DNA from: Mesorhizobium sp. AR02
GTDB lineage: Bacteria; Pseudomonadota; Alphaproteobacteria; Rhizobiales; Rhizobiaceae
Length of the DNA: 64,000 nt
Direction: 5' to 3'
Assembly (NCBI RefSeq): GCF_024746835.1
Contig: NZ_CP080531.1
Coordinates: 5,290,001 to 5,354,000 of the forward strand
The position numbers were made by a program, and so were the translations under genes. Below, in pieces: positions 8,080 through 46,461 of the stretch. How positions within the stretch are numbered: position 1 is the first letter of the stretch; every line of letters starts with the position of its first letter. The notes beneath the pieces were generated by a model. The model was not told the origin of the DNA. It saw only the letters and a list, made by a program, of their open reading frames with translations, and did no database searches.

Positions 8080-8985
8080 ATGGCTACCCTGTCGACCGAT
8101 GCACCAATCTCTCCGCTTCGCCAGCGCATGCAGCACGACATGCTCATGCGTGGCCTGGGCTCCCATACCCAGCAGGACTACGTTCGTCACGTCCGGCGCT
8201 TCGCTGTGTTCCTTGGCCGCTCGCCGGACACTGCGACGGCTGAGGACATCCGCCGATTCCAGCTGCATCAGCATGAGAGCGGCGTCGGCCCTGCGACGAT
8301 CAATGGCGCGGTCTCGGCATTGCGGTTCCTGTTCCTCGTGACGCTGAAGCGGCGGGATCTGGCGCGCGCGCTGGTGATTATGAGGTATCAGCGCAAGCTG
8401 CCCGACGTGCTGAGCGTGGAGGAAGCGGCGCGGCTGCTCGAAGCGGCGCCAGGCATCAAGTACAAGGCCGCGCTCGGTGTCGCCTATGGCGCTGGTCTGC
8501 GCGTGTCCGAGGTCGCGCACCTCAAGGTCGACGACATCGATAGCACACGCATGCTGATCCGCGTTGAACAGGGCAAGGGACGCAGGGACCGCAACGCCAT
8601 GCTCTCGCCGCAACTTCTGGAACTGCTGCGGCTGTGGTGGCGCGAAGGCAGGCGGCGCGGGGTGATGCTCCCGCATGGCTGGCTGTTCCCAGGGCGCAGC
8701 TGCACGGCGCCGATCTCGTCGCGGCAACTGCATCGCGCGGTCCAGGAAGCAGCCGAAGTCGCCGGCATCCGCAAGCGCGTCAGCCCGCACACGCTGCGCC
8801 ACAGCTTCGCCACTCATCTGCTCGAACAGGATGTCGACATCCGCGTCATCCAGGTGCTGCTTGGCCACAGCAAGCTCGATACCACCGCGCTCTACACCAA
8901 GGTCTCGACGCGGACGATCCATGCGGTCGCAGGGCCGCTCGACCGGCTGATGGCGCTGATGGAACACAAGACGCCGCCCGGCTGA
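8080..8985 (+). CDS. Tyrosine recombinase of IS91-like element (copy 1)
   Basis: The 301-residue site-specific recombinase of the XerC/D-like phage integrase class has an N-terminal SAM-like domain (about 13-95). The catalytic residues are visible: R141 (GAGLRVSEVAHLK), a Lys near 166 (GKGRRD), H237-x-x-R240 (HTLRHSFATHLLE), H263 (LLGHSK) and the nucleophile Y272 (ALYTK). All are intact, so the enzyme looks active. The ATG follows cgagga. Recombinases of this kind accompany a subset of IS91-family elements, where they may resolve dimers or co-integrates; that role here is inferred. Confidence 0.93.
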   Translation: MATLSTDAPISPLRQRMQHDMLMRGLGSHTQQDYVRHVRRFAVFLGRSPDTATAEDIRRFQLHQHESGVGPATINGAVSALRFLFLVTLKRRDLARALVIMRYQRKLPDVLSVEEAARLLEAAPGIKYKAALGVAYGAGLRVSEVAHLKVDDIDSTRMLIRVEQGKGRRDRNAMLSPQLLELLRLWWREGRRRGVMLPHGWLFPGRSCTAPISSRQLHRAVQEAAEVAGIRKRVSPHTLRHSFATHLLEQDVDIRVIQVLLGHSKLDTTALYTKVSTRTIHAVAGPLDRLMALMEHKTPPG

Positions 8986-8988
8986 GCC

Positions 8989-10182
8989 GTGCGCACCTCT
9001 GTCGAGGTCGCCGACATCTTCCGTGCTGCCGGCCCCGCCTATCGGGCCGCCCATGCAGGTCACCTGAGCCTCATCCAGCTCAAGGTGATGTCGGCGATCG
9101 AGCATTGCCGCACCGCGGCGCTCGGCGGTCACGTCGAGGCCTGCGAGGACTGCGGCCAATGGCGGATCGCCTATAACAGCTGCCGCAACCGGCACTGTCC
9201 CAGGTGCCAGGGCGCGGCCGCGCGTACATGGCTCGCCGAGCGCGAAGCCGACCTGCTGCCAGTCGGCTACTTCCACGTCGTGTTCACGCTGCCCGCCGAG
9301 GTCGCCGTCATCGCGTTCCACAACAAGGCGCTGGTCTATGACCTGCTGTTCAAGGCGGCATCGGAGACGATGCTGGCGATCGCGGCGGATCCCAAGCACC
9401 TCGGCGCGCGCATCGGCATCACCGCCGTGCTCCACACATGGGGCTCGGCAATGACGCACCATCCTCATGTCCACATGATCGTGCCGGGCGGCGGCATCAC
9501 GCCGGACGCGTCACGCTGGATATCGTCGCGGCCGGCCTTCCTTCTCCCAGTCAGAGTGCTGGGCAAGCTGTTCCGCCGTCTGTTCCTGACCCGACTGGTC
9601 GCGCTGCACGACGCCGGTCGGCTCGCCTTCTTCGGATCGGCGGCGCACCTCGCCGATCGTCGGGCCTTCCTACGCCACCTGGCTCCCGTCAAGAAGAAGC
9701 GCTGGGTGGTCTACGCCAAGCCGCCCTTCGCCGGTCCCGGGGCGGTGCTCGCCTATCTGTCGCGCTATACCCACCGGGTTGCGATCTCGAACCGCCGCCT
9801 GATCGCCTTCGAAGAGGCTGGGGTCACCTTCCGCTACAAGGATTATCGCCGCGACGGCACCGACCGGCAGCAGGTCATGACGCTCGCCACAGATGAGTTC
9901 ATCCGCCGCTTCCTGCTCCACGTCCTGCCGCGCGGCTTCCATCGCATCCGACATTATGGCCTGCTCGCCGGCTCCGCCCACAAGGCCAGCCTCGCACGCG
10001 CCCGCGAACTGCTGGGCGTCGCTGCCCCGTCCGATGACCACACACCCGAACCAGAGGACTTCCGGCCGCCATGCTCCTGCTGTGGCGGACGCATGATCGT
10101 CATCGAGGTGTTCGAACGGTGGAGGAGGCAGCCGCGCGGACCTCCGAACGCATCGGCACCGATCCGGGAGACCGCTCCATGA
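8989..10182 (+). CDS. IS91-family HUH (Y2) transposase (copy 1)
   Basis: The 397-residue rolling-circle transposase has an N-terminal zinc finger with C52, C55, C65, H69, C70 and C73, the HUH metal-binding motif HPHVH (158-162), and the two catalytic tyrosines in YLSRYTHR (Y256, Y260). It starts at GTG 3 bp after the recombinase stop, so the two are translationally coupled. All key residues are present. The stretch coding residues 41-85 differs from copy 2 at eight bases. Confidence 0.95.
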   Translation: MRTSVEVADIFRAAGPAYRAAHAGHLSLIQLKVMSAIEHCRTAALGGHVEACEDCGQWRIAYNSCRNRHCPRCQGAAARTWLAEREADLLPVGYFHVVFTLPAEVAVIAFHNKALVYDLLFKAASETMLAIAADPKHLGARIGITAVLHTWGSAMTHHPHVHMIVPGGGITPDASRWISSRPAFLLPVRVLGKLFRRLFLTRLVALHDAGRLAFFGSAAHLADRRAFLRHLAPVKKKRWVVYAKPPFAGPGAVLAYLSRYTHRVAISNRRLIAFEEAGVTFRYKDYRRDGTDRQQVMTLATDEFIRRFLLHVLPRGFHRIRHYGLLAGSAHKASLARARELLGVAAPSDDHTPEPEDFRPPCSCCGGRMIVIEVFERWRRQPRGPPNASAPIRETAP

Positions 10183-10600
10183 CCCGGCATGGTCTGATTC
10201 AGCCTCCAGCCACAGGCGCTCAACCTGCGGCGACGGACCCACGCGCGCCCATGGTGCTCAGCGAGGCCCGCAGGGCCCCGTCCGCCTGCGCGCAGAGGCT
10301 ACAAGGCTGTGCGGAGGCTTCACTGAGCGGTCCGTCCGTGTCCACCGCGTCGCCTAACGGGGGCGGTCACGCCGTCGCCGACATCAGCCGCAAACTAAAA
10401 TCCCCATAGCCATCAACTGTGGCCCGCGGGTTCCTGCATGAGAGGCTTTCGTACGCCTCTCGGCACCCGAAACCCTTCAGCATGCACGAACCCGCTTCGC
10501 GGGAGGGTCGCCTCGACCTGAGATGGCGCGACAGGCATTTGACTTGAGCGGGTAGAGGCGTCGATCTGACCATGGAGTTCCCTTCAACGAGGAACTCGCC

Positions 10601-11506
10601 ATGGCTACCCTGTCGACCGATGCACCAATCTCTCCGCTTCGCCAGCGCATGCAGCACGACATGCTCATGCGTGGCCTGGGCTCCCATACCCAGCAGGACT
10701 ACGTTCGTCACGTCCGGCGCTTCGCTGTGTTCCTTGGCCGCTCGCCGGACACTGCGACGGCTGAGGACATCCGCCGATTCCAGCTGCATCAGCATGAGAG
10801 CGGCGTCGGCCCTGCGACGATCAATGGCGCGGTCTCGGCATTGCGGTTCCTGTTCCTCGTGACGCTGAAGCGGCGGGATCTGGCGCGCGCGCTGGTGATT
10901 ATGAGGTATCAGCGCAAGCTGCCCGACGTGCTGAGCGTGGAGGAAGCGGCGCGGCTGCTCGAAGCGGCGCCAGGCATCAAGTACAAGGCCGCGCTCGGTG
11001 TCGCCTATGGCGCTGGTCTGCGCGTGTCCGAGGTCGCGCACCTCAAGGTCGACGACATCGATAGCACACGCATGCTGATCCGCGTTGAACAGGGCAAGGG
11101 ACGCAGGGACCGCAACGCCATGCTCTCGCCGCAACTTCTGGAACTGCTGCGGCTGTGGTGGCGCGAAGGCAGGCGGCGCGGGGTGATGCTCCCGCATGGC
11201 TGGCTGTTCCCAGGGCGCAGCTGCACGGCGCCGATCTCGTCGCGGCAACTGCATCGCGCGGTCCAGGAAGCAGCCGAAGTCGCCGGCATCCGCAAGCGCG
11301 TCAGCCCGCACACGCTGCGCCACAGCTTCGCCACTCATCTGCTCGAACAGGATGTCGACATCCGCGTCATCCAGGTGCTGCTTGGCCACAGCAAGCTCGA
11401 TACCACCGCGCTCTACACCAAGGTCTCGACGCGGACGATCCATGCGGTCGCAGGGCCGCTCGACCGGCTGATGGCGCTGATGGAACACAAGACGCCGCCC
11501 GGCTGA
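10601..11506 (+). CDS. Tyrosine recombinase of IS91-like element (copy 2)
   Basis: The protein sequence is identical to the copy at 8080-8985 and has the same intact catalytic set (R141, H237, R240, H263, Y272). See that entry for function. Confidence 0.93.
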   Translation: MATLSTDAPISPLRQRMQHDMLMRGLGSHTQQDYVRHVRRFAVFLGRSPDTATAEDIRRFQLHQHESGVGPATINGAVSALRFLFLVTLKRRDLARALVIMRYQRKLPDVLSVEEAARLLEAAPGIKYKAALGVAYGAGLRVSEVAHLKVDDIDSTRMLIRVEQGKGRRDRNAMLSPQLLELLRLWWREGRRRGVMLPHGWLFPGRSCTAPISSRQLHRAVQEAAEVAGIRKRVSPHTLRHSFATHLLEQDVDIRVIQVLLGHSKLDTTALYTKVSTRTIHAVAGPLDRLMALMEHKTPPG

Positions 11507-11509
11507 GCC

Positions 11510-12703
11510 GTGCGCACCTCTGTCGAGGTCGCCGACATCTTCCGTGCTGCCGGCCCCGCCTATCGGGCCGCCCATGCAGGTCACCTGAGCCTCATCCAGC
11601 TCAAGGTGATGTCGGCGATCGAGCATTGCCGAACCGCGGCGCTCGGCGGTCACGTCGAGGCCTGCGAGGACTGCGGCCAATGGCGGATCGCCTATAACTC
11701 CTGCCGCAACCGGCACTGCCCGAAGTGCCAGGGCGCGGCCGCGCGGACATGGCTCGCCGAGCGTGAAGCCGACCTGCTGCCAGTCGGCTACTTCCACGTC
11801 GTGTTCACGCTGCCCGCCGAGGTCGCCGTCATCGCGTTCCACAACAAGGCGCTGGTCTATGACCTGCTGTTCAAGGCGGCATCGGAGACGATGCTGGCGA
11901 TCGCGGCGGATCCCAAGCACCTCGGCGCGCGCATCGGCATCACCGCCGTGCTCCACACATGGGGCTCGGCAATGACGCACCATCCTCATGTCCACATGAT
12001 CGTGCCGGGCGGCGGCATCACGCCGGACGCGTCACGCTGGATATCGTCGCGGCCGGCCTTCCTTCTCCCAGTCAGAGTGCTGGGCAAGCTGTTCCGCCGT
12101 CTGTTCCTGACCCGACTGGTCGCGCTGCACGACGCCGGTCGGCTCGCCTTCTTCGGATCGGCGGCGCACCTCGCCGATCGTCGGGCCTTCCTACGCCACC
12201 TGGCTCCCGTCAAGAAGAAGCGCTGGGTGGTCTACGCCAAGCCGCCCTTCGCCGGTCCCGGGGCGGTGCTCGCCTATCTGTCGCGCTATACCCACCGGGT
12301 TGCGATCTCGAACCGCCGCCTGATCGCCTTCGAAGAGGCTGGGGTCACCTTCCGCTACAAGGATTATCGCCGCGACGGCACCGACCGGCAGCAGGTCATG
12401 ACGCTCGCCACAGATGAGTTCATCCGCCGCTTCCTGCTCCACGTCCTGCCGCGCGGCTTCCATCGCATCCGACATTATGGCCTGCTCGCCGGCTCCGCCC
12501 ACAAGGCCAGCCTCGCACGCGCCCGCGAACTGCTGGGCGTCGCTGCCCCGTCCGATGACCACACACCCGAACCAGAGGACTTCCGGCCGCCATGCTCCTG
12601 CTGTGGCGGACGCATGATCGTCATCGAGGTGTTCGAACGGTGGAGGAGGCAGCCGCGCGGACCTCCGAACGCATCGGCACCGATCCGGGAGACCGCTCCA
12701 TGA
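11510..12703 (+). CDS. IS91-family HUH (Y2) transposase (copy 2)
   Basis: This copy differs from copy 1 by a single residue, R72K, inside the zinc finger (CPKCQG instead of CPRCQG). Eight nucleotide differences cluster in the codons for residues 41-85, and seven of them are silent. The HUH motif and both tyrosines are intact. Confidence 0.95.
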   Translation: MRTSVEVADIFRAAGPAYRAAHAGHLSLIQLKVMSAIEHCRTAALGGHVEACEDCGQWRIAYNSCRNRHCPKCQGAAARTWLAEREADLLPVGYFHVVFTLPAEVAVIAFHNKALVYDLLFKAASETMLAIAADPKHLGARIGITAVLHTWGSAMTHHPHVHMIVPGGGITPDASRWISSRPAFLLPVRVLGKLFRRLFLTRLVALHDAGRLAFFGSAAHLADRRAFLRHLAPVKKKRWVVYAKPPFAGPGAVLAYLSRYTHRVAISNRRLIAFEEAGVTFRYKDYRRDGTDRQQVMTLATDEFIRRFLLHVLPRGFHRIRHYGLLAGSAHKASLARARELLGVAAPSDDHTPEPEDFRPPCSCCGGRMIVIEVFERWRRQPRGPPNASAPIRETAP

Positions 12704-21553: not shown

Positions 21554-22596
21554 CAGGGCTATCGCATATGAGTAAAGAGGTCATAGAAGAAGTCTTTGCT
21601 CCAGTTTGCCCTGCGCATCTTGCTGGCGATTGGCTTGTCGAGTGGATGGGCAGCCAAGATGTTTTGAGCGAGCCTTCGGATGACAGCCAGGTTTTGTGGA
21701 GCGTTATCCTTTCGGGTGCGAGCGTCGTCTTCGCGGAAGACGACATCAAGGCTCCAGTGCAACTGGTTCTCGATCGTCCAGTGGGCGCGAACCGTCTCAG
21801 CCAGATGCTTGGGCGTCAGCACCTTGGAAAGCGCGACGTATCGGACCGAGGCAGCCGTCTTGCCGTCGGTGGTGCGCAGAGCCTCGATACGGCCGATGGC
21901 CTTGAGGCCGGGGAACACGGGCAGGTCCTTGAGTTTGGCAAGCGGCAGCACGCTGGCTCGTCGCACTTCCGTGCGACCATGAGCCGTATCGCGCGTTTCG
22001 AAACTGGCGATCTCGCCCGCCACGGCGAAGCTTTTCTCAGCTGCGGCAAACAGACGGCCCCGGAGGCCAGCGCCCGCGTTGCTGCAATCGCCAGCCTGGT
22101 CTCGGCATCCCAGGCATTGACCATCAGCGGTGGCATGAAGGCACGGCCCTTCTCATAACCGCGCCTGAGCGCCTTGCCGTCGATGGCCACCACGCCACGC
22201 GGCGAGCCAAGTCCAAGCTCACGCCGCAATGCCACCATGAAGGCGCTCAGTGCATCCGACAGCGCCTGCGGATCAAGAAGCCGAAACACCCGGCTGAAGG
22301 TGTCGTGGCTCGGACACCCATGCTTCAGCTCGACGATCGCTTTCAGTTCGTCTTCCCGGCCCTCCACGAATTCAGCAATGTCCACACAGCTTTTGGCCCC
22401 ACACAGCGTCGCTGCAAGTGCCACAAACAGAAGTTCAGCAAGATTATGCCGCGCGTTGATGTCGCGCGGATCGCGAACTTCTTGCAGGATCGACAAAACC
22501 AGCCGCACTCGGACCTCCTCTGCAACGAGAAAGCCTCTCAAGAATCCCTCTTGTCCTGCTTGGCAAGAGCCAATCAACTTATCTGCGATTCCCCTG
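21554..22596 (-). mobile_element. ISAs1-family insertion sequence, internally deleted (about 1043 bp)
   Basis: Terminal inverted repeats are visible: CAGGGCTATCGCATATGAG at 21554 and, on the other strand ending at 22596, CAGGGGAATCGCAGATAAG. It is flanked by a 10-bp duplication, cccgcaaggg (21544-21553) and cccacaaggg (22597-22606), with one mismatch. The insertion lies in the stem of a mosaic palindrome. Full-length relatives are about 1.2-1.3 kb, consistent with the transposase deletion. Confidence 0.85.
21559..22508 (-). pseudogene. ISAs1-family transposase, frameshifted and internally deleted
   Basis: The N-terminal part (about 22508-22085) reads LSILQEVRDPRDINARHNLA, the HDTFSRVFRLLDPQ region, then the first catalytic Asp in VVAIDGKALRRG and NAWDAETRLAIA. 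The C-terminal part continues in another frame from about 22075 (AAAEKSFAVAGEIASFETRD, WTIENQLHWSLDVVF). Roughly 80-100 residues between them, including the second catalytic Asp, are missing. The GTG start at 22508 has GAGGAGG upstream. It cannot make an active enzyme. Confidence 0.85.
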
Positions 22597-22924: not shown

Positions 22925-24049
22925 ATGACTTCAGACACCAAACTTCGCGACCCCTTCGACGAGGCCCCCGACACCGCCTGGCAGGACGATGTCCGCCAGG
23001 GCGTGCGCCATGTGCGCGACCTCGACCGCCTGCCGCTGTCGCCAGCCGAGCGCGCCGCCGCGCAGGAGGCCGCCGTGCTCCACAAGGTGCGCGCGCCAAA
23101 AGCCTATCTCGACCTGATCGACTGGAACGACCCCGCCGATCCGATCCGGGCGCAGGTCATCCCGTCACTGGGCGAATTGGTGGAGACGGAGGGCGAGCTT
23201 GGCGATCCGATCGCCGACCACGACTTCAGCCCAGTGCCGCGATTGACGCATCGCCATGCCGACCGGGTGCTGTTGTTTCCGACCTATCAATGCGCGGTCT
23301 ATTGCCGGTTCTGCTTCCGCAAGGAGTCGCTGACCTCGATCGGTCGCGGCTATACGCGCGAGGCGCTGGAGCCGGCGCTGGCCTATATCGCGGATCATCC
23401 CGAAATCCGCGAGGTGATCCTGACTGGCGGCGATCCGCTGTCGCTGCCCGACAAGGCACTGGCCGAAATCCGCGCCCGCGTCGAAGCCATCCCGCATGTG
23501 CGGCTGCTGCGCATCCACACGCGCGTGCCGGTGGCGCTGCCGTCGCGCATCACGTCAGGGCTGGTCGCGGCGCTGCAGGGCCGGCTGATGGTCACCGTCG
23601 TCACCCATTTCAACCACGCGCGCGAGATCACCGATGCCGCCGAGACAGCCTGCAGGACGATGCGCCAGGCGGGCTTCGTGCTGCTTAACCAAAGCGTTCT
23701 CCTGAAGGGCGTCAATGACAGCGTCGAGGTGCTGGAGGAGCTCTGCCGCGAGCTGATGTATCGGCTGGGGGTAAAACCCTATTACCTCCACCATGGCGAC
23801 CTCGCGCGCGGCATGGCGCACCGGCGCACCACGATTGCGCAGGGGCAGGCGCTGGTGGAAGCGTTGAGGGCGCGGCTGTCGGGTGTATGCAATCCGGTCT
23901 ATGTGCTCGACCTGCCGGAAGGCGGCGGCAAGGTGCCGCTCGGGCCGTGTCCTATCGAGGGACGCGACGGGGAGACCTGGCGGATACGCGGTCAGGATGG
24001 CGCGGTGAGGACCTATCGGGAGATCGTCGGTGCGCGGGAAGAACAGTGA
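22925..24049 (+). CDS. KamA-family radical SAM protein (lysine 2,3-aminomutase-like)
   Basis: The 374-residue protein has the radical SAM cluster motif C123-x3-C127-x2-C130 (YQCAVYCRFCFRK), VILTGGDPLSL for SAM binding, and the two lysine-binding aspartates of the family in LKGVNDSVEV and HHGDLARGMAHRRT. The C-terminal LDLPEGGGKVPLGP matches the GGGGKxP motif of lysine 2,3-aminomutases. Enzymes of the family need PLP and isomerise L-lysine to L-beta-lysine; EpmB relatives act on lysine for EF-P modification. No efp or epmA gene is adjacent. Instead it is convergent with the PPTase of a Pls-like synthetase operon. It starts at the ATG at 22925. Confidence 0.88.
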   Translation: MTSDTKLRDPFDEAPDTAWQDDVRQGVRHVRDLDRLPLSPAERAAAQEAAVLHKVRAPKAYLDLIDWNDPADPIRAQVIPSLGELVETEGELGDPIADHDFSPVPRLTHRHADRVLLFPTYQCAVYCRFCFRKESLTSIGRGYTREALEPALAYIADHPEIREVILTGGDPLSLPDKALAEIRARVEAIPHVRLLRIHTRVPVALPSRITSGLVAALQGRLMVTVVTHFNHAREITDAAETACRTMRQAGFVLLNQSVLLKGVNDSVEVLEELCRELMYRLGVKPYYLHHGDLARGMAHRRTTIAQGQALVEALRARLSGVCNPVYVLDLPEGGGKVPLGPCPIEGRDGETWRIRGQDGAVRTYREIVGAREEQ

Positions 24050-24073
24050 TCAGGGCGCCTGCACCGAGGCCCT

Positions 24074-24718
24074 CTAATCCGCATCGTCCACAAACGCCAG
24101 GACGACCACGCGCGGGGCAACGCAGTATGCGAGCCTGACCTTGCGGCCGGTCTTCGTCGTCGCGCGGCCCGCGTCGAGATCGACGGCGATATCTTCGTAG
24201 CCCAGGATCTCGCGATCGAGCGGATAGGCCGCCTTGTAGACCGCTTCCTTGGCGCAAAACAGGATGCGGCCGGCAAGCCGCCGGTCCGCCGCGCCTGTCC
24301 GATCCGCGCCGGTTGCAACGATCGCGAAAATGTCGTCCGGCAGGGGTTGGGCGGGCTCGACATCGATGCCGAGGGAGACGATGCGGCCGACAGGCGCAAC
24401 CGCCGCCACGGCCATGTCGTCGTCATGGGCGAGCGAACCAATTATCCCGTCCGGCCAGACCGGAGCACCGGACGGCGCGCGCGGGATGGCGACGTCGCTG
24501 ATGCCGATATCGGCCAGCAGCCGGTGCGCGATCCAGCGGGCGGCACCGCTGGATCGCCGCATGGCCGGCTGGCGCGCGGGGATGGAACGCGCTTCCTCGG
24601 GCAGCAGATGGGCCTCGTCCGCGTCGCCTATCACCCGGCATCCGGTGCGGACATTTCGGGGCGCGATTGCCGCCATAGCTTCGGCCAACGCGGCTTCAGG
24701 GGAGGGCGGCCGCGTCAA
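24074..24718 (-). CDS. 4'-Phosphopantetheinyl transferase (Sfp/EntD superfamily)
   Basis: The 214-residue enzyme transfers phosphopantetheine from CoA to the Ser of carrier domains. The two family motifs are visible: LGIDVEPAQP (117-121, Mg/CoA binding) and FCAKEAVYKAAY (154-163, the W/F-x-x-K-E-x-x-x-K signature). APSGAPVWPDG and SLAHDDDMA match the upstream substrate-binding motifs. The TTG start overlaps the stop of the GNAT gene (TTGA), indicating translational coupling. It is third in the operon with the synthetase whose T domain it presumably activates. Confidence 0.9.
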   Translation of the reverse strand: MTRPPSPEAALAEAMAAIAPRNVRTGCRVIGDADEAHLLPEEARSIPARQPAMRRSSGAARWIAHRLLADIGISDVAIPRAPSGAPVWPDGIIGSLAHDDDMAVAAVAPVGRIVSLGIDVEPAQPLPDDIFAIVATGADRTGAADRRLAGRILFCAKEAVYKAAYPLDREILGYEDIAVDLDAGRATTKTGRKVRLAYCVAPRVVVLAFVDDAD

Positions 24719-25191
24719 CGGCCATCCCTTGGCAGGACGAGGTCGGCGATCATTTCGCCATCCTCGTCGAGCCCTTCTTCGACGAAACCGGCGGTGCGAT
24801 AGAGCTGGCGTGCCGCTTCATTCTCCGGTTCGTAGCAGATCGAGACGTGCCTGATGTGACCGAGCCCGCCGATTTCGCGCAGCACCTCGCGCAACGCGGC
24901 TTTGCCGTAGCCCTTGCCCTGGCTGGCGCGGTCGATCATGAAGCGGTAGATCCGCGCCTCGTCATCATCCTGCGGTGCGTCGTACATCAGGAAACCGACG
25001 ATACGATCCCCGGCCATGATGACGCGGGGCCGCGCGTCCCTGTCGGATTTGGCTTCGCGCAGCGAGGCTGCGTTGCTTGCGACGAAATCCATCTGTTCCG
25101 GGGCCAGCCGCAGTGCGGTGACCAAGGCGCTGTTGGCCGGGGTCACCGGGGCGATCCGGATGTCCATTGTGCTTCCGGATCGCTCTGCCAC
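24715..25191 (-). CDS. GNAT-family N-acetyltransferase
   Basis: The 158-residue protein has the acetyl-CoA binding motif in DRASQGKGYGKAALREVL (R/Q-x-x-G-x-G/A) and the NEAARQLYRTAGFVEEG segment typical of GNATs. Closest in style are spermidine/diamine or amino-acid acetyltransferases (RimI/SpeG-like). The GTG at 25191 has GGAGG 4 bp upstream; an ATG at 25167 (MDIRIAPV) is an alternative. It is 23 bp downstream of the synthetase and overlaps the PPTase start. A role in acetylating an amine product or providing self-protection is inferred from context. Confidence 0.85.
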   Translation of the reverse strand: MAERSGSTMDIRIAPVTPANSALVTALRLAPEQMDFVASNAASLREAKSDRDARPRVIMAGDRIVGFLMYDAPQDDDEARIYRFMIDRASQGKGYGKAALREVLREIGGLGHIRHVSICYEPENEAARQLYRTAGFVEEGLDEDGEMIADLVLPRDGR

Positions 25192-25214
25192 GTGGCCTCC
25201 GACGGGATCGAGCG

Positions 25215-28200
25215 TCAGGATGACGCCCTGGAGCCGTCCTCCATGATCGGCTCGACGAACCGATGCAGCTTGGCCGGGTTGCCGCGCCAGATCGAGTTGG
25301 GCTCCAGCTCTTCGCCCTTCATCACGAAGGAGTCCGTATCGACGACCGATCCCTTACCCATGACGACGCCGTAATGGACAAAGGCGGAAGGTCCGAGCGT
25401 GCAACCATCACCGATGCGGATGAAGTCCGACTTGAACGCACCTTCTTCCAGCGAGTGGGCCTGGATGACGCAGCCCTCGTTGAGCGTGACGTCGTCGCCG
25501 ATCTCGACCAGCGAGCGTTCGGTGAGGTTGCTGCCGCCGTCATAGACCCGCTTGCCGACCTTGACGCCCAGCATGCGCAGGATCATCGGCCGGAACGGCG
25601 TGCCGGCGAACAGGCGCACGATCGGCGAATCCGCCAGCTTCCAATGGCGTTCGTGGCGCCAGAAGGCGACGTCGTAGATCGTCGTCATCTGCGGCTTCAG
25701 CCGGCCAAAACCAAGGCTTGCCCGCTCGACAAAGATGTAGAACGGAATGGTGATCGCCGAGGTCAGGAGCACGGCGACGAAGAGAGCGACCTCCGCCCAT
25801 TCGGTGTAGTAGTTCAGCGCCCGGTCCCAGATCGCCAGCGTGGCGAACAGCATGACCCATTGCGTTGCCATGAACAGAAGGATCGTCACCAGATTGTGGC
25901 GGTTCTTGAACGGGATGCGCTGGCGCCGATCTGCTTCGTCGACGCCGGCAATGAGTTCCTTGTCGCGGTTGACCATGCGCGGGATTTCAAAGGCAGGCGA
26001 ACCAAGCAGGCCGACATTCTCGCGCAGCGGGCCGTCGATGGGGATCATCACCTTGGTGCCGAGCAGGACGTTGTCGCCCGTGCGGCCATCCGGCGGATAG
26101 TAGATGTTGTTGCCGAGATAGTTGCGCTCGCCAATGCGTGTCGGCTCCAGCCGGAACGCCGAGGCGGATTTGTGCACATTGATCATGAACAGGCCGTCCG
26201 ACACCATGGTTTCGGTGCCGATCTCGCACAGAAGCGGGTTGTCGTGCTGCTGGTTGGAGCCGAAGTTGGAGCCGGTCTGCACCACCTTGTTGAGGTTCCA
26301 GCCGATGGCGCGCATGTAGTGGACGATCGCCGAGCTGTCGCCGAACAACAGCCCCAGCACACGCGAATTGCTGGAGAATTCGGACACGGTCTGCAGCCAG
26401 TAACGGAAGCCGTAGAGCGTATAGGTGCGGCCAGGCTTCAGGATCAGGCTGAAAACGCGCGGCAGGACGGTGGCGGCGAAAAAGGCGACGGCGATATAGC
26501 CGAAAAGCGTGACCGTGGTGCCGATGGCGACAAGACCGATCGTCTCCTGATAGTCGTCGCCGACATATTCCCAATAGCTATGGAACAGGAACGGCAGCGG
26601 GGTGATGACAGCGAACAGCAGGAACAGCTGAACGGCCTCGTAAAGGAAGCGTCGGACCTCGTAAGGGTTCGCGGTGCGCACCTTGCAATAATCCGCCGTG
26701 GTCGGCACGGCCGGCGATCCATGCCAGTGCTCGCCATCGGGAATGCTTTGCCCGCGCTGCAGTGAGGACGAATGGCCGAGCTGGCCGCCGTCGCCGATGG
26801 AGGTGTCGATGTCGAGCGTCGAGCCGACGCCGACGAAGGCATCGCGACCAATGCTCAGCGGTCCGGTGTGGATATAGCCGGCCTGGGCCCGATAGCCGAG
26901 GATCATCGATTCCTTGCGCAGGATGGTGTTGGCGCCGATCGAAATGAGATCCGTGCAGACGGGCACGGATTTGGATTCGATGACGGCGTTGTGCCCGAGC
27001 TTGGTGCCCAGCAGTTGCAGATAGATGCTGTAGAGCGGGCTGCCGCGGAACAGGACGACGGGCGCCGAGCGGATCAAGGTCTTGACGACCCAGAAGCGAT
27101 AGTAGCGCCATCCCCAGATGGGGAACGCCTCGGCCTTCCAGCGGCCGATGAGCAGCCATTTCGCGGCAACGGCAAAGCCGGACATGCCGAAGAACACGCC
27201 GGCCGACAGCGCCACGCACCTGACGTAGAGCTCCAGCGGTTCGTCGAGTGCGTCATAGACCCAGTCGAGGCCGTGGTCGAGGACCCACAGCGCGGCATAG
27301 CTGTAGAGCAGGTAGAACGAAAGCTGGCCCGCTCCGCAGGTCCAATAGGCAAGGTTCGATGCCTGGCGGGTGAGGACAGGCTCGTTGGTGGCCGTCGTCA
27401 TCTCTTCCGCCACGCTCAGATGCTTGGCCAGGCGCGCAACGGTCGGATAGAGATAGATGTCGCGCATGGACGTCGTCGCCCATTCCTTGCGGGTGCGCAC
27501 GCGGGCGCAGAAATGCGCCATCAGCAGCGAGTTGGCGCCGAGATCGTCGAAGAAATTGTCCTCGACCGACACCGCGTCGAATTTCAGCACCGCGGCCAGC
27601 GCCTCGGCCAGGAAGCGCTCGTCGTCATTGCCGGGCGCCACCATCTCGCGGTCGGCGGAAAGCCGCACACTTGTCGGCTTCGGCAGCTGGCGAAGGTCGA
27701 CCTTGTTGGAGACCGTCATCGGGATGACAGGCAGTTCCTCCAGATAGGAGGGCACCATGTAATCCGGCAGGCGCCGCTTCATAGTCTGGGCAATGTCGGC
27801 GCGCGAGAGTGCCGGCTGGCCGGCCTTGCGCGCGTAATAGGCGACGAGCTCGACGCGGCCGGGCTCGATCTCCCAGGTGGTGACTGCAGCCTGTGCGATC
27901 TCCGGCTGGTCGAGCAGCACCGCCTCGATTTCGCCGAGTTCGATGCGATAGCCGCGGATCTTCACCTGGGTGTCGATGCGCCCGGCATACTCGATCTCGC
28001 CTTCGCCGTTGATCCGGCCAAGGTCGCCCGTGCGGTAGATGCGCTGCGACGGGTTGTTCGGCAGGCCGAGGAAATCGGCGATGAATTTCTGCTCCGTCAG
28101 GTCTTGCCTGTTGAGATAGCCGACGGCGAGGCCGATGCCGGCGATGCCGATCTCGCCCAGTTCGCCAGGCTCGGCCAGCTCCGGCAGCGAAGGGTCGAGA

Positions 28201-29351
28201 ATGACGATGGAATAGGTGGGCAGCGGCGCGCCGATGGTGACGGGCTTGTCCGGCGTCAGCGCGCCCATCGTTGCCGTGACGGTCGCCTCTGTCGGGCCAT
28301 AGGTGTTGAGGATCTGCCGCCCCGGCTTCGACCAGCGCACCACCAGATTGTGCGGGCAGGCCTCGCCGCCGACCAGGAGCGTGCGCAGGCTGGGTACATC
28401 CGATGTCATCGACGACAGAAGCGTCGGGCTGCAGGCCATGCAGGTGATGTCATGAAGACGCAGGAAATCGGCGAGTTCCTCGCCCACCAGAGGCATCTGG
28501 CCGGGTGCGGGCACCACCGTCGCGCCGGCGACGAACGGCACCCAGATCTCTTCGGAAGAAAAGTCGAAGGCGATGGTCATGCCCTGGTAGACGCGGTCGC
28601 CCGGCCGGTAGCCGTAGGATGCGGCGGCGACGCGGATGAAGTTGACGAAGCTCTGGTGCCTGATGGCCACGCCCTTCGGCCTGCCGGTCGTGCCCGACGT
28701 GTACAGGATGTAGCAGATGTCTTCGACTGCAGTGGGGGCCGACCCCTTGTGCGGCTTCAGCGGCGCGCCGGACTGTTTGGAGATCTCGGCGGCGGCACTG
28801 TCGATCAGCACATTGGGAACCGGCAGCTGGTCGGCGCGCGACGCATAGGTGGCGATGGTGACGATCAGGCTGACGCTGGCGTCTTCGATGATGAGCGCCA
28901 TGCGCTCTTGCGGAAAGGCGGTGGCCAGCGGCACGAAGGCGGCGCCTGCCTTCACAACTGCGAGCAAGGCGACATAGGTTTCCGCCGACCGGTCGAGAAT
29001 GAGCCCGACCCGGTGGCCCGGCCGCACGCCGCGCTTGATCAGCACACGGGCGAACTGGTTGGCACGGCTGTCCAGCTCCTGATACGTCCAGGCACGTCCG
29101 TCGGAGATCACCGCCGGCAAGGCGGCAAATGTCTCGGCGAGCTGCTCGAAGACCGCGTCGAGCCGCTCATCCGGCTGACCTTGCCGGGCGAAATCGGCGC
29201 CCACCAGGATCTGGTTGCGAGCAGTTGCTGCCGAGGCGTGAGCGATCCTTGCGAGTGCATCGACGCTTGCCAGGCCGGTTTCGGCTGGGCTGCCCTGGCT
29301 TGCCGCGTCCCTGTCCAGGCCGGCGATGTCGACACCGTAATCCATTTCCAT
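25215..29351 (-). CDS. Pls/PosA-like membrane-bound non-ribosomal peptide synthetase (A-T-6TM-C-like)
   Basis: The 1378-residue protein begins with an adenylation domain (about 65-570; core motifs ILYTSGTTGRPKGVA, NTYGPTEATVTA, YRTGDLGRINGEGEIEYAGR, A10 Lys in SNKVDLRQLP). A thiolation domain follows, with the phosphopantetheine Ser in DDLGANSLL (about 605). After that come six membrane helices in three pairs (about 675-735, 905-970, 1160-1210), separated by soluble segments with hexapeptide-like turns. This is the architecture of epsilon-poly-lysine synthetase (Pls) and relatives, which polymerise amino acids without a thioesterase. The start ATG at 29351 follows GAGAAAG. The downstream GNAT and PPTase form its operon. 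Product unknown. Confidence 0.9.
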   Translation of the reverse strand: MEMDYGVDIAGLDRDAASQGSPAETGLASVDALARIAHASAATARNQILVGADFARQGQPDERLDAVFEQLAETFAALPAVISDGRAWTYQELDSRANQFARVLIKRGVRPGHRVGLILDRSAETYVALLAVVKAGAAFVPLATAFPQERMALIIEDASVSLIVTIATYASRADQLPVPNVLIDSAAAEISKQSGAPLKPHKGSAPTAVEDICYILYTSGTTGRPKGVAIRHQSFVNFIRVAAASYGYRPGDRVYQGMTIAFDFSSEEIWVPFVAGATVVPAPGQMPLVGEELADFLRLHDITCMACSPTLLSSMTSDVPSLRTLLVGGEACPHNLVVRWSKPGRQILNTYGPTEATVTATMGALTPDKPVTIGAPLPTYSIVILDPSLPELAEPGELGEIGIAGIGLAVGYLNRQDLTEQKFIADFLGLPNNPSQRIYRTGDLGRINGEGEIEYAGRIDTQVKIRGYRIELGEIEAVLLDQPEIAQAAVTTWEIEPGRVELVAYYARKAGQPALSRADIAQTMKRRLPDYMVPSYLEELPVIPMTVSNKVDLRQLPKPTSVRLSADREMVAPGNDDERFLAEALAAVLKFDAVSVEDNFFDDLGANSLLMAHFCARVRTRKEWATTSMRDIYLYPTVARLAKHLSVAEEMTTATNEPVLTRQASNLAYWTCGAGQLSFYLLYSYAALWVLDHGLDWVYDALDEPLELYVRCVALSAGVFFGMSGFAVAAKWLLIGRWKAEAFPIWGWRYYRFWVVKTLIRSAPVVLFRGSPLYSIYLQLLGTKLGHNAVIESKSVPVCTDLISIGANTILRKESMILGYRAQAGYIHTGPLSIGRDAFVGVGSTLDIDTSIGDGGQLGHSSSLQRGQSIPDGEHWHGSPAVPTTADYCKVRTANPYEVRRFLYEAVQLFLLFAVITPLPFLFHSYWEYVGDDYQETIGLVAIGTTVTLFGYIAVAFFAATVLPRVFSLILKPGRTYTLYGFRYWLQTVSEFSSNSRVLGLLFGDSSAIVHYMRAIGWNLNKVVQTGSNFGSNQQHDNPLLCEIGTETMVSDGLFMINVHKSASAFRLEPTRIGERNYLGNNIYYPPDGRTGDNVLLGTKVMIPIDGPLRENVGLLGSPAFEIPRMVNRDKELIAGVDEADRRQRIPFKNRHNLVTILLFMATQWVMLFATLAIWDRALNYYTEWAEVALFVAVLLTSAITIPFYIFVERASLGFGRLKPQMTTIYDVAFWRHERHWKLADSPIVRLFAGTPFRPMILRMLGVKVGKRVYDGGSNLTERSLVEIGDDVTLNEGCVIQAHSLEEGAFKSDFIRIGDGCTLGPSAFVHYGVVMGKGSVVDTDSFVMKGEELEPNSIWRGNPAKLHRFVEPIMEDGSRASS

Positions 29352-29828: not shown

Positions 29829-31198
29829 CTACGGAATGCACACATCTCTGAGTTCCCAGCCTTTTGCGATGGCACGGAAGTATTCGAGGCCGTGTCGGAA
29901 GGTGATGGGACCAGGTGGTTTGGAGGAGGGATAGCCATTCCAGCCGCCAAGGCGGGCAATGATCCAGGCGGCCCATGCGAGACTGTGCCTTGGGTGCGGG
30001 TTGTTTTGCAAGGCAGTGCGACCTTGATAGCTGGCATCGAGGCTGTCGAGCACGGCGATGTCGGAAGTGCTGAAGGCATTGGCGGCGTGTTCGCCACCAA
30101 TGCCTTCGCGGGCCTGGACGAGTTGCAGGATAACCGCCGCAGCCTTGGTGGCGATGGCGGCGAGCTTGACCAACACCTCGGCGCTGGCGAGTTGGCTGTC
30201 CTCGAGGCGCAGGCCATGCGTCTTCATCAGACGGAACAACTGCTCGATGGTCCAGCGCCGCCTGTACCAGTCGACGATCTGCCAGGCGGCGGCGACGTCG
30301 CTGATCTCATGGGTGGTGAGCAGACGCCAGTGCACTGGCTCGGCCGCGGCTGGAGGACCAAGTTCGACGACTTCGACAAGGTTCAGCGTCACGGTCTTCG
30401 GCAAATCCCTGGCGCCGGGATTGTCGGGACGGCACACCTCGACCTTGCTGAAGCGCAGGCTCACCTGGGTGCTGCGTGCCGCCCGCTTGTGCGTGGCCAA
30501 CAACTCAAGCCTGCGCGCGGCCACGAACGGCAGCGCTGCCGTCACGCTCGACAAAGTACCGCCGCCCGCTACGGCACGATCGTGCATCACACGCGTCAAA
30601 AGGTGGACATTGCCGCCGGGCAGTGTCGCCCATTCGGCATAGATGTCGCTCTCGCGGTCGGCCACGATCGTAACAGTGGCGGCTTTGGCCAGCACGCTTC
30701 TGGCCTGAAGGGCCGTGTCGATCCAGCGGCGCGATTCCTTGTCCTTGAGCGAGCGCTTGGCGTGCGGTGTCTCGACCCGGCCCTTGCGCGTGTAGACGCT
30801 GCCGGCCACCAGCCCCAGACAACCGCCGCTCACCGCATCGATGGCCACCATCGCATGCACCAGCACGCCGCGCCCACCACCTTTGCCGATCTCACCCAGG
30901 CCGCGTCGCCGCTCGGGCGTGGTGGCAAAGGTGATCTCGCTGGTGTCCTGGATCGCCAACACATGCCGCTCGGCGGCCGCAGACACCGTCTGTTCGCTCC
31001 AGCCTTGGATCAACCGCTCGATCGTCACCTTGTCATTGGCCAGCAGGCGATGGAACCCGACCTCCTGCGCCCGCCGGCCCTCGCCAAGCCGGCGCAGGCA
31101 GATATCTTGGCGCGCAACCATGCGGTCGAGCAGCATCGCCCCCTTTTGTCGAGGCGCAAATCCCCGAAACGGCCCAGCGACGGTTGCTCAACAAGCAT
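29829..31198 (-). CDS. IS4-family transposase, N-terminal frame broken
   Basis: The main frame (ATG at 31136, 435 residues) carries the DDE fold with DTSEITF, VADRESDIYAE and the IS4 signature Y-(2)-R-(3)-E-(6)-K in YRRRWTIEQLFRLMKTHGL. The expected N-terminus (MLVEQPSLGRFGDLRLDKRG, starting 31198) is in a different frame. The two join at a run of A4G5 on the minus strand near 31140, where re-reading one G (a -1 shift) would restore the protein. It is either a single-base deletion or a programmed frameshift. The stop codon TAG lies within the terminal inverted repeat. Confidence 0.85.
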
Positions 31199-32114: not shown

Positions 32115-33086
32115 ATGTTCAGCATGACACGCCGCACACTGCTTGGAACCGCCACTGCTGCCGCTGCCTTCGGCCTTGCCGGCAAGCTCGAATTCACCCG
32201 CCCCGCTTTCGCTGAGACCCCCGTGGAGCCGACCGTCGGCTTCTACAAATACACGGTCGGCGACATCGAGGTCACCGCCATCTATGACGGCATCTGGAAG
32301 AAGCCGCATGACCCGGCCTTCATCAAGGATGTTTCCGTCGACGAGACCAAGGCAGCGCTCGCCAAGGCAGGGCTGACCACCGACTTCATGCCCATCCCGC
32401 TCACCGTCGTCGTGCTCAAGATGGGCGGCAAGCTGATCATGATGGATGCCGGCTCGGGCGTCGGCCAGTGGCAGGCCAACGCCACGCACCTGCCGGCCAA
32501 CATGGCCGCTGCCGGCATCGACTACAAGGCGATCGACACCATCATGATCTCGCATTTCCACCCCGACCATGTCTGGGGCCTGATGGAGAAGGGCACCAAC
32601 ACGCCGGTGTTCCCCAATGCCGAGCTGATCGTCAACGCCACCGAATACAATTGGTGGACCGACCCCAGCCGGCTGGCCAAGCTGCCCGAAGGCCGCAAGC
32701 CGGCGGGCAAGCGCATCGCCGAGAATTTTCCGAAATGGAAGAACTGGAAGCTGGTCGAGGATGGTGCGGAAGTCGCGCCCGGCATCCAGATCATCGCCGC
32801 CCCCGGCCACACACCAGGTCATTCGGTCTACCTCGCCAATTCCGGCAAGGAGCAGCTGATGATCTCGGCCGACACCATGTATGTGCCGGCGCTTCTGGCG
32901 CCGCATCCGGAGTGGCAGGGCAGCTACGACCAGGATGGGCCGACGGCCATCACCACGCGCCACAAGATCATCGACCGGGTGATTGCCGACGGCATCCGCA
33001 TTTCCGGTTCGCACTTCCCGTTCCCGGGCACCGGCGTCTTCGTCAAGGACGGCAATGCCTACGGCTTCACTCCTGTCCAAATTTGA
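32115..33086 (+). CDS. MBL-fold metallo-hydrolase with Tat-type signal
   Basis: The 323-residue protein has a twin-arginine signal (MTRRTLLGTATAAAAFGLAG). The metallo-beta-lactamase fold is shown by ISHFHPDHVWG (HxHxDH, two-metal site), APGHTPGHSVY and SADTMY. It is predicted to fold in the cytoplasm with metals and be exported to the periplasm. Relatives include lactonases, glyoxalase II-like enzymes and thiosulfohydrolases; the substrate is not evident. An ACAGGAGATT ribosome-binding site sets the ATG. It precedes the TPR gene by 31 bp, likely in one operon. Confidence 0.9.
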   Translation: MFSMTRRTLLGTATAAAAFGLAGKLEFTRPAFAETPVEPTVGFYKYTVGDIEVTAIYDGIWKKPHDPAFIKDVSVDETKAALAKAGLTTDFMPIPLTVVVLKMGGKLIMMDAGSGVGQWQANATHLPANMAAAGIDYKAIDTIMISHFHPDHVWGLMEKGTNTPVFPNAELIVNATEYNWWTDPSRLAKLPEGRKPAGKRIAENFPKWKNWKLVEDGAEVAPGIQIIAAPGHTPGHSVYLANSGKEQLMISADTMYVPALLAPHPEWQGSYDQDGPTAITTRHKIIDRVIADGIRISGSHFPFPGTGVFVKDGNAYGFTPVQI

Positions 33087-33117
33087 GCGTGAGCTCCCAA
33101 ACCAAGCGAGAAAGACA

Positions 33118-33597
33118 ATGAAACAATCCTTCCTGGGCAAGCACGCCCTCTACGGCCTGCTCGGCGCCATTGCCGTGCTGACCGTGGTTCCCGTCGCGAC
33201 AATCATGCCGGCCTATGCGGTCGACGACATCGAGGGCACTGACGCGCCCGACCTCACCGCCGTCCAGGCCAAGATCGCCGCCAAGGATTACAAGGGCGCG
33301 CTGGCCGATCTGCGTGATCTGGCGCAGGACAACCAGCAGGCCGATGTCTACAATCTGCTCGGCTTCACGCTGCGCAAGACCGGCGACTTCACCACCGCGC
33401 TGACCTACTACAACAAGGCGCTGGAGCTGAAGCCCGACCACAAGGCCGCCCGCGAATATCTGGGCGAGCTCTATGTCGAGACCGGCGACATGGACAAGGC
33501 CAAGGCGCAACTGGCCTCGCTGCAAAAACTCTGCCCCGCCGGCTGCGACGAGCTTTCCGACCTGCAAAAGGCCATCGACACCAAGGTGACGCAGTAA
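33118..33597 (+). CDS. Exported TPR-repeat protein
   Basis: The 159-residue protein has a signal peptide or anchor (YGLLGAIAVLTVVPVATIMP, then AYA). Two to three tetratricopeptide repeats follow (DYKGALADLRDLAQDNQQAD, KTGDFTTALTYYNKALELKP, ETGDMDKAKAQLASLQKLC). Two Cys near the end (CPAGC) may pair. It may act as a periplasmic scaffold for the MBL-fold enzyme encoded just upstream; that is inferred from linkage only. Confidence 0.85.
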   Translation: MKQSFLGKHALYGLLGAIAVLTVVPVATIMPAYAVDDIEGTDAPDLTAVQAKIAAKDYKGALADLRDLAQDNQQADVYNLLGFTLRKTGDFTTALTYYNKALELKPDHKAAREYLGELYVETGDMDKAKAQLASLQKLCPAGCDELSDLQKAIDTKVTQ

Positions 33598-33600
33598 GTT

Positions 33601-33752
33601 CCCCCTCACCCGGATTGCCAAGACCGAATTGCAAAGAGCAATTCGGGGCAATCCGACCTCTCCCCGAGGGGAGAGGAGGGCGCCGGCGTTGACACAAGTC
33701 TCTTCTCCCCAGCGGGGAGAAGGTGGACGCGAAGCGGCCGGATGAGGGGGCC
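33601..33752. repeat. Intergenic palindromic repeat, second mosaic type
   Basis: Inverted modules include ctctccccgaggggagag, cttctccccagcggggagaa and an attgc/gcaat arm pair (ccgaattgc / gcaattcgg). The ends read ccccctcacccgg and ccggatgaggggg, inverted relative to each other. Confidence 0.65.
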
Positions 33753-33815
33753 TTGGCGCTGACTCGTGCGGCCGCCATGAATCACAGTTTGGGCGCTCGT
33801 GGCTGGCGCCCATTG

Positions 33816-33855
33816 CCGGAGCCGGCGCCTCTCCCTCGAGCCGGCTCCGGCCTTT
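33816..33855 (+). terminator. Rho-independent terminator-like hairpin
   Basis: A perfect 11-bp stem, ccggagccggc (33816-33826) with gccggctccgg (33840-33850), followed by ccttttc. It would end transcripts from the MBL/TPR genes or insulate the DoxX gene. Confidence 0.6.
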
Positions 33856-33936
33856 TCGAAGATCCCATCCGGCAAACGCCGCGCGCCCCACGGCGCGCAC
33901 CGCGCTTGCCTGCGACCAAAAATTGGAGGCTGACCC

Positions 33937-34458
33937 ATGACACCGAACGAAATCGCTGCGAAGCTCACCGGCCTCGCCACGAAATACCACATCAGGGACG
34001 TGACCCTGCTTGCCGGCCGCCTGCTTATGTCCTTCATCTTCCTGCATGAGGGCGTGACGCTGGCCACCCATTTCGACGGCGCCGCCAAGGCGATGGCCGC
34101 GCAAGGCGTCGGGCTGCCGCTGTTCGTCGCCACCATCGCGCTGCAACTGGGAGCAGGGCTCTCGGTGGCTTCAGGCCTGCTGACGCGGCTGGGCGGCATC
34201 GGGCTCGGCCTGTTCTGCCTGGCAACGGCCACGCTGTTCCACACCAACTTCGCCAGTCAGACCGAGCTGTTGAATTTCGAAAAGGATCTGGCGATATCAG
34301 GCGGCATGTTCGTGCTGGCCGCTGTCGGCGCAGGCAGGATTTCGCTGGACTGGCTGCTGGCCCGCTACCTGCAAAAGCGCCAGCGCGACAAGGAAATGGT
34401 CAGGGCATTGCTGGCCGTGGAGAACGAATTCACGCTGGATGTACGGCTGCCGGTTTGA
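33937..34458 (+). CDS. DoxX-family membrane protein
   Basis: The 173-residue protein has four predicted helices (LLAGRLLMSFIFLHEGVTLA, PLFVATIALQLGAGLSVASG, GIGLGLFCLATATLFHTNF, LAISGGMFVLAAVGAG), normal for DoxX. The conserved N-terminal R-x-x-x-x-x-F-x-x-x-G pattern and the charged FEKDLAI before the last helix are present. A strong TTGGAGG site precedes the ATG. DoxX proteins occur with thiol/redox or quinone functions; the role here is open. Confidence 0.87.
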   Translation: MTPNEIAAKLTGLATKYHIRDVTLLAGRLLMSFIFLHEGVTLATHFDGAAKAMAAQGVGLPLFVATIALQLGAGLSVASGLLTRLGGIGLGLFCLATATLFHTNFASQTELLNFEKDLAISGGMFVLAAVGAGRISLDWLLARYLQKRQRDKEMVRALLAVENEFTLDVRLPV

Positions 34459-43465: not shown

Positions 43466-44707
43466 TCACACCGCCTTGAACACCACCGTCTGCGCCAGCC
43501 CACCCCCCTTGCGGTTCTCCAGCGTCACGGTCCCGCCATAGCGCTCGATGATCTCCTTGGCGATGGCCAAGCCCAGGCCGGCGCCGGGGATGAATTGCTG
43601 GCGGCCGGGGTCGACGCGGAAGAAGGGCTCGAAGGCCTTGTTGATGAGGTCGGGCGGGATGCCCGGGCCGTTGTCGGAAATGGTCAGCACGGCGCGCCTG
43701 TCGGTGGCCGCAAGGGCAATGGTGCAGGCCTTGCCATGGGTGGCGGCGTTGACGATCAGATTGCGCAGCGCCCGGCGCAGGCCGAGTGCGCCGGCGCGCA
43801 CCGATACCTTGTCCAGATGGCCGATCGAGACGGCATGGCCGAGCGAGACCATCTCGGCTTCGATGTCGCGCACCATCTTTTCCAGGTCCATCGGCTCGAC
43901 GGCATCCTGGTTCACCTCCTCGCGCACCAGGCGGATGGCGCTGTCGGCGATACGGTCGAGCTCGTCGAGATCGTGAAGCCATTTGTCGCGCTCCTCGTCT
44001 AGGAATTCGGCGCGCAGGCGCATGCGCGTCATCGGCGTGCGCAGGTCATGGCCGGCGGCGGCGACGAGGCGCATGCGGCTCTCCATGGCAGTGCGCAGCC
44101 GCGACGAGAGCTGGTTCAGCGCATGCGCCGTCGCCTTGACCTCGGCCGAGCCCACTTCCGGCACCGTAGCCAGCACACCATCGCTGCCGATCTTGGATAC
44201 GGCGGCCTCCAGCATTTCCAGCGGCCGGATCAGCACCGAGGTGAAATAGACCGAGACGGCGGTGGCGCCGGCGACGATCAGCGAGATCCAGCCGGCCAGA
44301 ACCAGCCATTCGCGCCCGGGCGGCTTGAGGTGCGGCACCTCCATGATCGCCCAGCGATTGTCGGGCAGTTGCACCGAGGCCAGCTGGCCGGGTTCGTCCG
44401 GCTTCTCGCTGACGATGGCCAAAAGGTTGAGGCCGCGGCGGTGCAGGATGTCGTTGAGCATCGTCGTTTCCGCACGGGCGACCTTGCCGTCGGCCGGGCG
44501 GTCGCTGAATTGCACGCGCAGCACATCCGGGATCGGCCCCGGCAGCAGGCGCACCACGAGTTCCATCTGCTGCGCGATCCAGGGCACCGTCAGCTCCGGC
44601 GGCGGCCCGCCGCCGCGCACGCTGATGACGGCGGCGGTCGCTAGGCCGACGACACCGACGATCGAAAGGATCAGCAGCAGGATGAGGCGGCGGCGCAGCG
44701 AGTTCAC
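43466..44707 (-). CDS. Sensor histidine kinase (EnvZ-like)
   Basis: The 413-residue inner-membrane kinase has two TM helices (LILLLILSIVGVVGLATAAV and WLVLAGWISLIVAGATAVSV) around a periplasmic sensor of about 100 residues, then HAMP (about 165-215). The phospho-acceptor His lies in AAGHDLRTPMTRMRL, with N box LRNLIVNAATHG, G1 ISDNGPGIPP and G2 GAGLGLAIAKEII. The GTG start overlaps the regulator stop (GTGA). It pairs with the OmpR-type regulator and is divergent from a Spy-like gene and efflux operon. Confidence 0.95.
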   Translation of the reverse strand: MNSLRRRLILLLILSIVGVVGLATAAVISVRGGGPPPELTVPWIAQQMELVVRLLPGPIPDVLRVQFSDRPADGKVARAETTMLNDILHRRGLNLLAIVSEKPDEPGQLASVQLPDNRWAIMEVPHLKPPGREWLVLAGWISLIVAGATAVSVYFTSVLIRPLEMLEAAVSKIGSDGVLATVPEVGSAEVKATAHALNQLSSRLRTAMESRMRLVAAAGHDLRTPMTRMRLRAEFLDEERDKWLHDLDELDRIADSAIRLVREEVNQDAVEPMDLEKMVRDIEAEMVSLGHAVSIGHLDKVSVRAGALGLRRALRNLIVNAATHGKACTIALAATDRRAVLTISDNGPGIPPDLINKAFEPFFRVDPGRQQFIPGAGLGLAIAKEIIERYGGTVTLENRKGGGLAQTVVFKAV

Positions 44708-45429: not shown

Positions 45430-45480
45430 GATCGGCCCTTGCTTAGCCGTGATTATAGGGAGAGCGCGCGCCAGCGGCAT

Positions 45481-45553
45481 GGAAAATTGCAACGCAATGT
45501 TTCCGACGGGCCGCCAGAAACGTTCGGAAACAAATTGCCCCTTTGCGGAAACC
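45481..45553. promoter_or_regulatory. Operator-like repeats between regulator and Spy-like gene
   Basis: GTTTCCGA (45499-45506) and TCGGAAAC (45524-45531) form a perfect inverted repeat. CGGAAAC recurs at 45525 and 45547, spaced 22 bp (two helical turns). An adjacent dyad reads ggaaaattgc / gcaatgtttcc (45481-45504). This is a good candidate binding region for the adjacent OmpR-type regulator. Confidence 0.5.
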
Positions 45554-45636
45554 TTCGGCAACACGCCGACGCGAAGCAGACAAACACGCTTCCTATCCTC
45601 ATGGCTGTCCGATGCATGAGAGAAAGGAACACCGTC

Positions 45637-46335: not shown

Positions 46336-46353
46336 CAACTCCGTCCGGCTGCG

Positions 46354-46399: not shown

Positions 46400-46461
46400 C
46401 AGGGATGGCGGGCCATGTCCGCCATCCCACCGTTCAAATCATCCAAAATGGAAGCACGGCA

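Follow-up and report, generated by a model that had tools for sequence, protein, structure and literature searches.

Cationic polyamino acids are known as antimicrobials, and the closest described system pairing such a polymer with an aminomutase gene is that of Streptoalloteichus hindustanus, whose epsilon-poly-beta-lysine synthetase carries the adenylation code DGESISVVNK and was discovered with the help of a lysine 2,3-aminomutase gene next to it (cited in the available portion of PMC10522769). Given this precedent, a beta-lysine polymer fed by KamA is not new in kind. The same portion reports that code position 2 is Phe in PDAP/PDAB synthetases, Met in PosA (the delta-poly-L-ornithine synthetase of Acinetobacter) and Ala in lysine synthetases, a rule derived from few characterised enzymes. 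Family members from rhizobia, with the code DLEDIGTVT/V/IK, are mentioned there as well, so the occurrence of Pls-family enzymes in these bacteria has already been published; a literature search for a rhizobial product of the Pls/PosA family, partly swamped by general rhizobium papers, found none. For PDAP and gamma-PLDAB synthetases, the gene contexts listed in excerpts of PMC8117764 include dat/ask. In excerpts of PMC4668381, the adenylation (A) domain of a PDAP synthetase showed weaker activity with beta-lysine and gave no product from it, while a code predictor named beta-lysine for that domain; codes for diaminopropionate (Dap) and beta-lysine can thus be confused. Furthermore, the YjeK/YjeA (EpmB/EpmA) pathway of EF-P lysylation is described in the consulted part of PMC2821294 as occurring mainly in gamma-, alpha- and delta-proteobacteria.

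The locus compared here with these systems lies in a 64,000-nucleotide stretch (the window, in which all positions are numbered) of the 8.9 Mb genome of Mesorhizobium sp. AR02. Independent gene calls agree with the four genes placed there by the initial annotation. A KamA-family radical SAM aminomutase gene, kamA, occupies 22925..24049 on the plus strand (ATG at 22925, stop ending at 24049) and is followed on the minus strand by genes for a 4'-phosphopantetheinyl transferase (PPTase, 24074..24718), a GNAT acetyltransferase (24715..25191) and a Pls/PosA-family synthetase of 1378 aa (25215..29351). The tight coupling claimed for the latter three is borne out, with a gap of 23 bp between the synthetase and the GTG start of the GNAT gene (47 bp if the alternative internal ATG at 25167 is used) and a TTGA overlap between the GNAT and PPTase genes. 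kamA is indeed convergent with this operon, 24 bp separating its stop codon from that of the PPTase gene, and a shared transcript is therefore unlikely. The set is bordered by an IS4-family transposase upstream of the operon (29829..31136, minus strand; NF033590, 278 bits) and by the C-terminal part of an ISAs1-family transposase beside kamA (21559..22023, minus strand; NF033564); genes for a metallo-beta-lactamase-fold protein, an unannotated protein and DoxX lie beyond the cassette (32115..34458, plus strand). Elsewhere in the window, an integrase and IS91-type transposase pair is directly duplicated at 8128-12703 (2055 bp, 99.6% identical, the repeat continuing on both sides), and a histidine kinase and response regulator stand near an AcrB-family efflux pump at 43466-50955.

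The synthetase comprises A, T and membrane C-terminal polymerisation domains. Pfam models for AMP-binding, AMP-binding_C, PP-binding and hexapeptide domains match it, the phosphopantetheine Ser of the T domain is present in GANSL, and the C-terminal domain matches TIGR02353 from model position 2 to the last, 695, scoring 935 bits where the cut-off is 423. A simple hydropathy scan, which is a rough guide, recovered five of the six expected membrane segments in this domain and gave two further peaks within the A domain, which is soluble. The Pfam and TIGR02353 matches uphold the assignment to the Pls type of A-T-membrane synthetase. Relatives with 86-95% identity are named Mesorhizobium, except for one 'Rhizobiales bacterium'. 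The PPTase (PF17837, PF01648) and GNAT (PF00583) matches all exceed the Pfam cut-offs, and the PPTase is presumed to load the T domain of the synthetase.

The adenylation pocket was read in two ways, by alignment to PosA (8g95/8g97) and by MAFFT. As the code-bearing stretch aligns to PosA without gaps, the positions that make up the PosA code in the available portion of PMC10522769 can be transferred directly; residues 263, 264, 267, 306, 326, 328, 350, 358, 359 and 550 spell DFEALGTVTK. The window synthetase thus belongs to the same family as PosA but differs from it in code (DMEHNGTVSK), and the beta-lysine code DGESISVVNK is absent from its A domain. The code is uniform among the genus members read: DFEALGTVTK is identical in all 22 other full-length synthetases sampled from the 67 other genus genomes with Pls, whether kamA adjoins, is distant or is missing (as in G055 and G086); the split or truncated synthetase of G005 (L099) was left out of the reading. 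Among 50 loci from named records, which overlap the same-genus genome set, 46 carry DFEALGTVTK and four DFEAMGTVTK; two of the original 52 (L244, L245) were dropped, as only their A-T part matches (31 and 35%) and their codes are unrelated.

Phe at position 2 agrees with the PDAP/PDAB assignment in the cited part of PMC10522769 and suggests diaminobutyrate (Dab) or Dap as the monomer, a reading close to an even bet. The PDAP and gamma-PLDAB synthetases share with the window enzyme both this residue and the A-T-membrane architecture, whereas the dat/ask genes of their contexts are not linked to the window operon, which holds PPTase and GNAT genes instead. With dat and SbnA models as queries, no Dab/Dap supply gene linked to or co-distributed with the cassette was found. 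The sole dat match in the genome (C1:923162) lies on another contig than the cassette, and dat (TIGR00709) occurs in 37 of the 68 genus genomes with Pls and 32 of the 51 without (p 0.45); dat was hence rejected as a linked supply. SbnA-type Dap synthesis was likewise rejected, TIGR03945 giving weak matches in 118 of 119 genus genomes and none over the cut-off. The lack of a linked or co-distributed supply gene of either kind speaks for the use of ornithine or lysine, which every cell contains, in a clade where the position-2 rule would fail; Thr at code position 7, equivalent to Thr304 of PosA, and Thr at position 9, resembling its Ser313, point the same way. Position 2 itself, however, is neither the Met of the ornithine enzyme nor the Ala of the lysine enzymes in the rule of PMC10522769 as excerpted, and this alternative is judged less likely than a short diamino acid.

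With regard to the acetyltransferase, sequence comparison with solved structures gives spermine/spermidine acetyltransferases as the closest relatives, namely 2fl4 and 9dsb, which match residues 1-141, almost the entire protein, at E 2e-14; the diaminobutyrate acetyltransferase EctA is matched more weakly and below the cut-off. Such kinship makes it reasonable to suppose that the GNAT would acetylate amines of the monomer or the polymer.

Distribution across genomes argues for separating this cassette from kamA. Among the 119 same-genus genomes, Pls is present in 68 and KamA in 105, and scores divide the Pls genes into two classes, I with 42 members and II with 26. In 36 of the 42 class I genomes, Pls and kamA are no more than 10 kb apart; three further copies share a contig with kamA at more than 0.9 Mb even if the contig is circular, two are on contigs other than that of kamA (one, G073, a fragmented draft), and one genome (G056) is without kamA, an absence given no weight, as only 152 bp separate its cassette (L101) from the end of the contig and kamA may have fallen into an assembly gap. 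No class II gene was seen within 10 kb of kamA: four of the 26 share its contig at a distance of at least 2.4 Mb, three are in genomes without kamA, and 19 are on contigs other than that of kamA, a count made somewhat uncertain by draft assemblies. With relatedness uncorrected, kamA is weakly associated with any Pls (64 of 105 genomes with kamA vs 4 of 14 without, p 0.04) and is also associated with class I (41 of 105 vs 1 of 14, p 0.018). In the named-record loci, GNAT accompanies the synthetase in 48 of 50 cases and PPTase in 49 of 50, and 32 of the 50 have kamA within the fetched flank, which reached 9 kb at most, two of the remaining 18 (L198, L200) being cut by contig ends. Cassettes with no kamA within 9 kb occur in Phyllobacterium, Mesorhizobium soli, Rhizobium, Brucella and 'Rhizobiales bacterium' records. 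The conserved unit is thus PLS-GNAT-PPTase; linkage of the aminomutase gene to the synthetase gene is confined to part of these sets, and kamA also occurs without the synthetase.

Synteny gives a consistent picture. In three genomes (G037, G071 and G035; loci L088, L104 and L116), one or two genes separate kamA from the set downstream of it that occupies 32115-34458 in the window, and the cassette is not there. G037 and G071 carry the cassette elsewhere, beside a gene set common to both, while G035 keeps the kamA neighbourhood in a genome without Pls. This arrangement is most simply explained by arrival of the cassette next to an already resident kamA. Besides the class I linkage and the weak kamA-Pls association, one further observation counts against a separation of KamA from the cassette: in G018 (L090, L231) PLS-GNAT-PPTase has efp-epmA rather than kamA as its neighbour, at about 4 kb, and kamA and efp/epmA are both loci of the beta-lysine pathway. 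An insertion hotspot common to the two sites is a guess at its cause. Since pocket, synteny and distribution are several independent lines for separateness, KamA was rejected as a cassette member, and the synthetase, GNAT and PPTase probably constitute the cassette with KamA outside it.

For KamA itself, the subfamily model TIGR00238 is matched over its cut-off, which sustains the KamA-type assignment, although the C-terminal motif described as GGGGK-like in fact reads PEGGGK. The best model, TIGR03822 (AblA_like_2), scores 352.5 bits against a cut-off of 396, and the EpmB model TIGR03821 271.6 bits against 369.3; lysine 2,3-aminomutase 2a5h aligns over almost the full length with 278 bits. 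The own genome resembles the EpmA/EpmB/EF-P lysylation system in having one KamA, one EpmA over the cut-off and two EF-P genes, both lysine-tipped (PGKG) and the second adjoining EpmA. It differs in that kamA, whose product is below the EpmB cut-off, adjoins neither efp nor epmA and lies 2 Mb from the latter.

Across the order (239 genomes), 74 of the 77 kamA-bearing genomes have EpmA vs 12 of the 162 others, kinship being uncorrected, and 39 of the 68 over-cut-off TIGR03822 genes are within 4 kb of epmA. Within the genus, the counts are 102 of 105 vs 10 of 14 (p 0.0036, kinship again uncorrected), the exceptions being ten genomes with EpmA and no kamA and three with kamA and no EpmA. In the 22 genus genomes in which EF-P was examined, kamA, EpmA and the second EF-P are all missing from G005, G054, G055 and G115; G053 is a counterexample, having kamA while both EpmA and the second EF-P are missing. 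Seven genomes of 3.7-4.8 Mb (G006, G013, G042, G051, G075, G096 and G111) keep EpmA and the adjoining EF-P with no KamA match, and G113 (L041, L105, L106) holds both a TIGR03822 KamA over the cut-off (566 bits) and a KamA of the Mesorhizobium type. An association of kamA with EF-P modification genes and its unlinking from the synthetase in relatives, which the initial annotation had named as evidence against its own proposal, are therefore seen in part: the co-occurrence with EpmA and the many unlinked relatives agree with it, but the linkage kept by most class I genomes does not.

KamA would most likely be an older resident of the locus making beta-lysine for EpmA-dependent EF-P modification. 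A stand-alone aminomutase of lysine catabolism or other function, serving neither polymer nor EF-P, is less likely. Scores below both the EpmB and TIGR03822 cut-offs and the genus exceptions in either direction would suit such an enzyme, yet it is the sole KamA found in a genome that has EpmA and lysine-tipped EF-Ps, and the co-occurrence with EpmA across the order is strong.

Loci elsewhere in the order serve as controls for the beta-lysine proposal. Of 34 Pls places outside the genus, 20 loci were fetched and 18 codes were readable, the synthetases of L176 and L177 being spread over two open frames. Among the 239 genomes of the order, KamA stands beside Pls in three outside the genus, G120, G284 and G334, whose loci are among those fetched, and all three synthetases carry DGESVSVVNK, one conservative change from DGESISVVNK. 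The beta-lysine code is found in none of the 15 other readable loci, and KamA in none of the 17 others fetched, in stretches of 8-15 kb. The KamAs of the three have TIGR03820 (lysine 2,3-aminomutase) as best model, unlike the window KamA with its TIGR03822, all scores being below the cut-offs, and two of the three genomes (G120, G284) are among the three in the order that have kamA without EpmA. Homologues of the window-type GNAT and PPTase (E 1e-6) were seen in none of the 20 loci, but in some of these, L180 for one, the contig stops shortly after the synthetase. These aminomutase and synthetase pairs, in other families (L188:5345-11004 in G334, L189:6352-12128 in G120 and L190:4392-10125 in G284), are real candidates for epsilon-poly-beta-lysine, judging from their codes. 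The comparison suggests that pocket code and aminomutase type, taken together, could distinguish loci likely to make a beta-lysine polymer from those where the two genes are neighbours by chance.

By the same comparison, the proposal of the initial annotation that KamA supplies beta-lysine for the synthetase to polymerise and the GNAT to modify is not sustained and is considered very improbable: the tight class I linkage, the likeness of KamA to 2a5h, the gene next door as in S. hindustanus (PMC10522769, in excerpt) and the weaker activity with beta-lysine that the A domain of a PDAP synthetase showed (PMC4668381, in excerpt, though without product) speak for it, but the pocket lacks the code of the three control loci and of S. 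hindustanus and is unchanged where kamA is distant or missing, as in Phyllobacterium, Mesorhizobium soli, Rhizobium and others, while kamA, convergent and outside the operon, is not co-inherited with the synthetase, resides without the cassette and tracks EpmA. The broader part of that proposal is supported: a Pls-type synthetase, served by a dedicated PPTase and accompanied by a GNAT, whose product is probably a cationic polymer of amino acids.

The preferred reading is thus of a synthetase, GNAT and PPTase forming one operon that appears to move as a unit. The A domain would activate a short diamino acid, at about even odds 2,4-diaminobutyrate or 2,3-diaminopropionate; the T domain, loaded by the PPTase, would carry it, and the membrane domain would build a cationic oligomer by linking the units through amines of their side chains. 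Acetylation of free amines of the monomer or product, for capping or self-protection, would probably be the task of the GNAT, and KamA would remain the older resident serving EF-P. As a tentative proposal, mobile PLS-GNAT-PPTase operons of Mesorhizobium, Phyllobacterium and relatives may make an amine-acetylated polymer of a short diamino acid, an undescribed cationic product of bacteria living with plants, with a built-in acetyltransferase for protection or capping. Conserved, self-contained and equipped with a PPTase and a GNAT of its own, such an operon, carried by many rhizobia, would lend itself readily to expression and to a search for its product.
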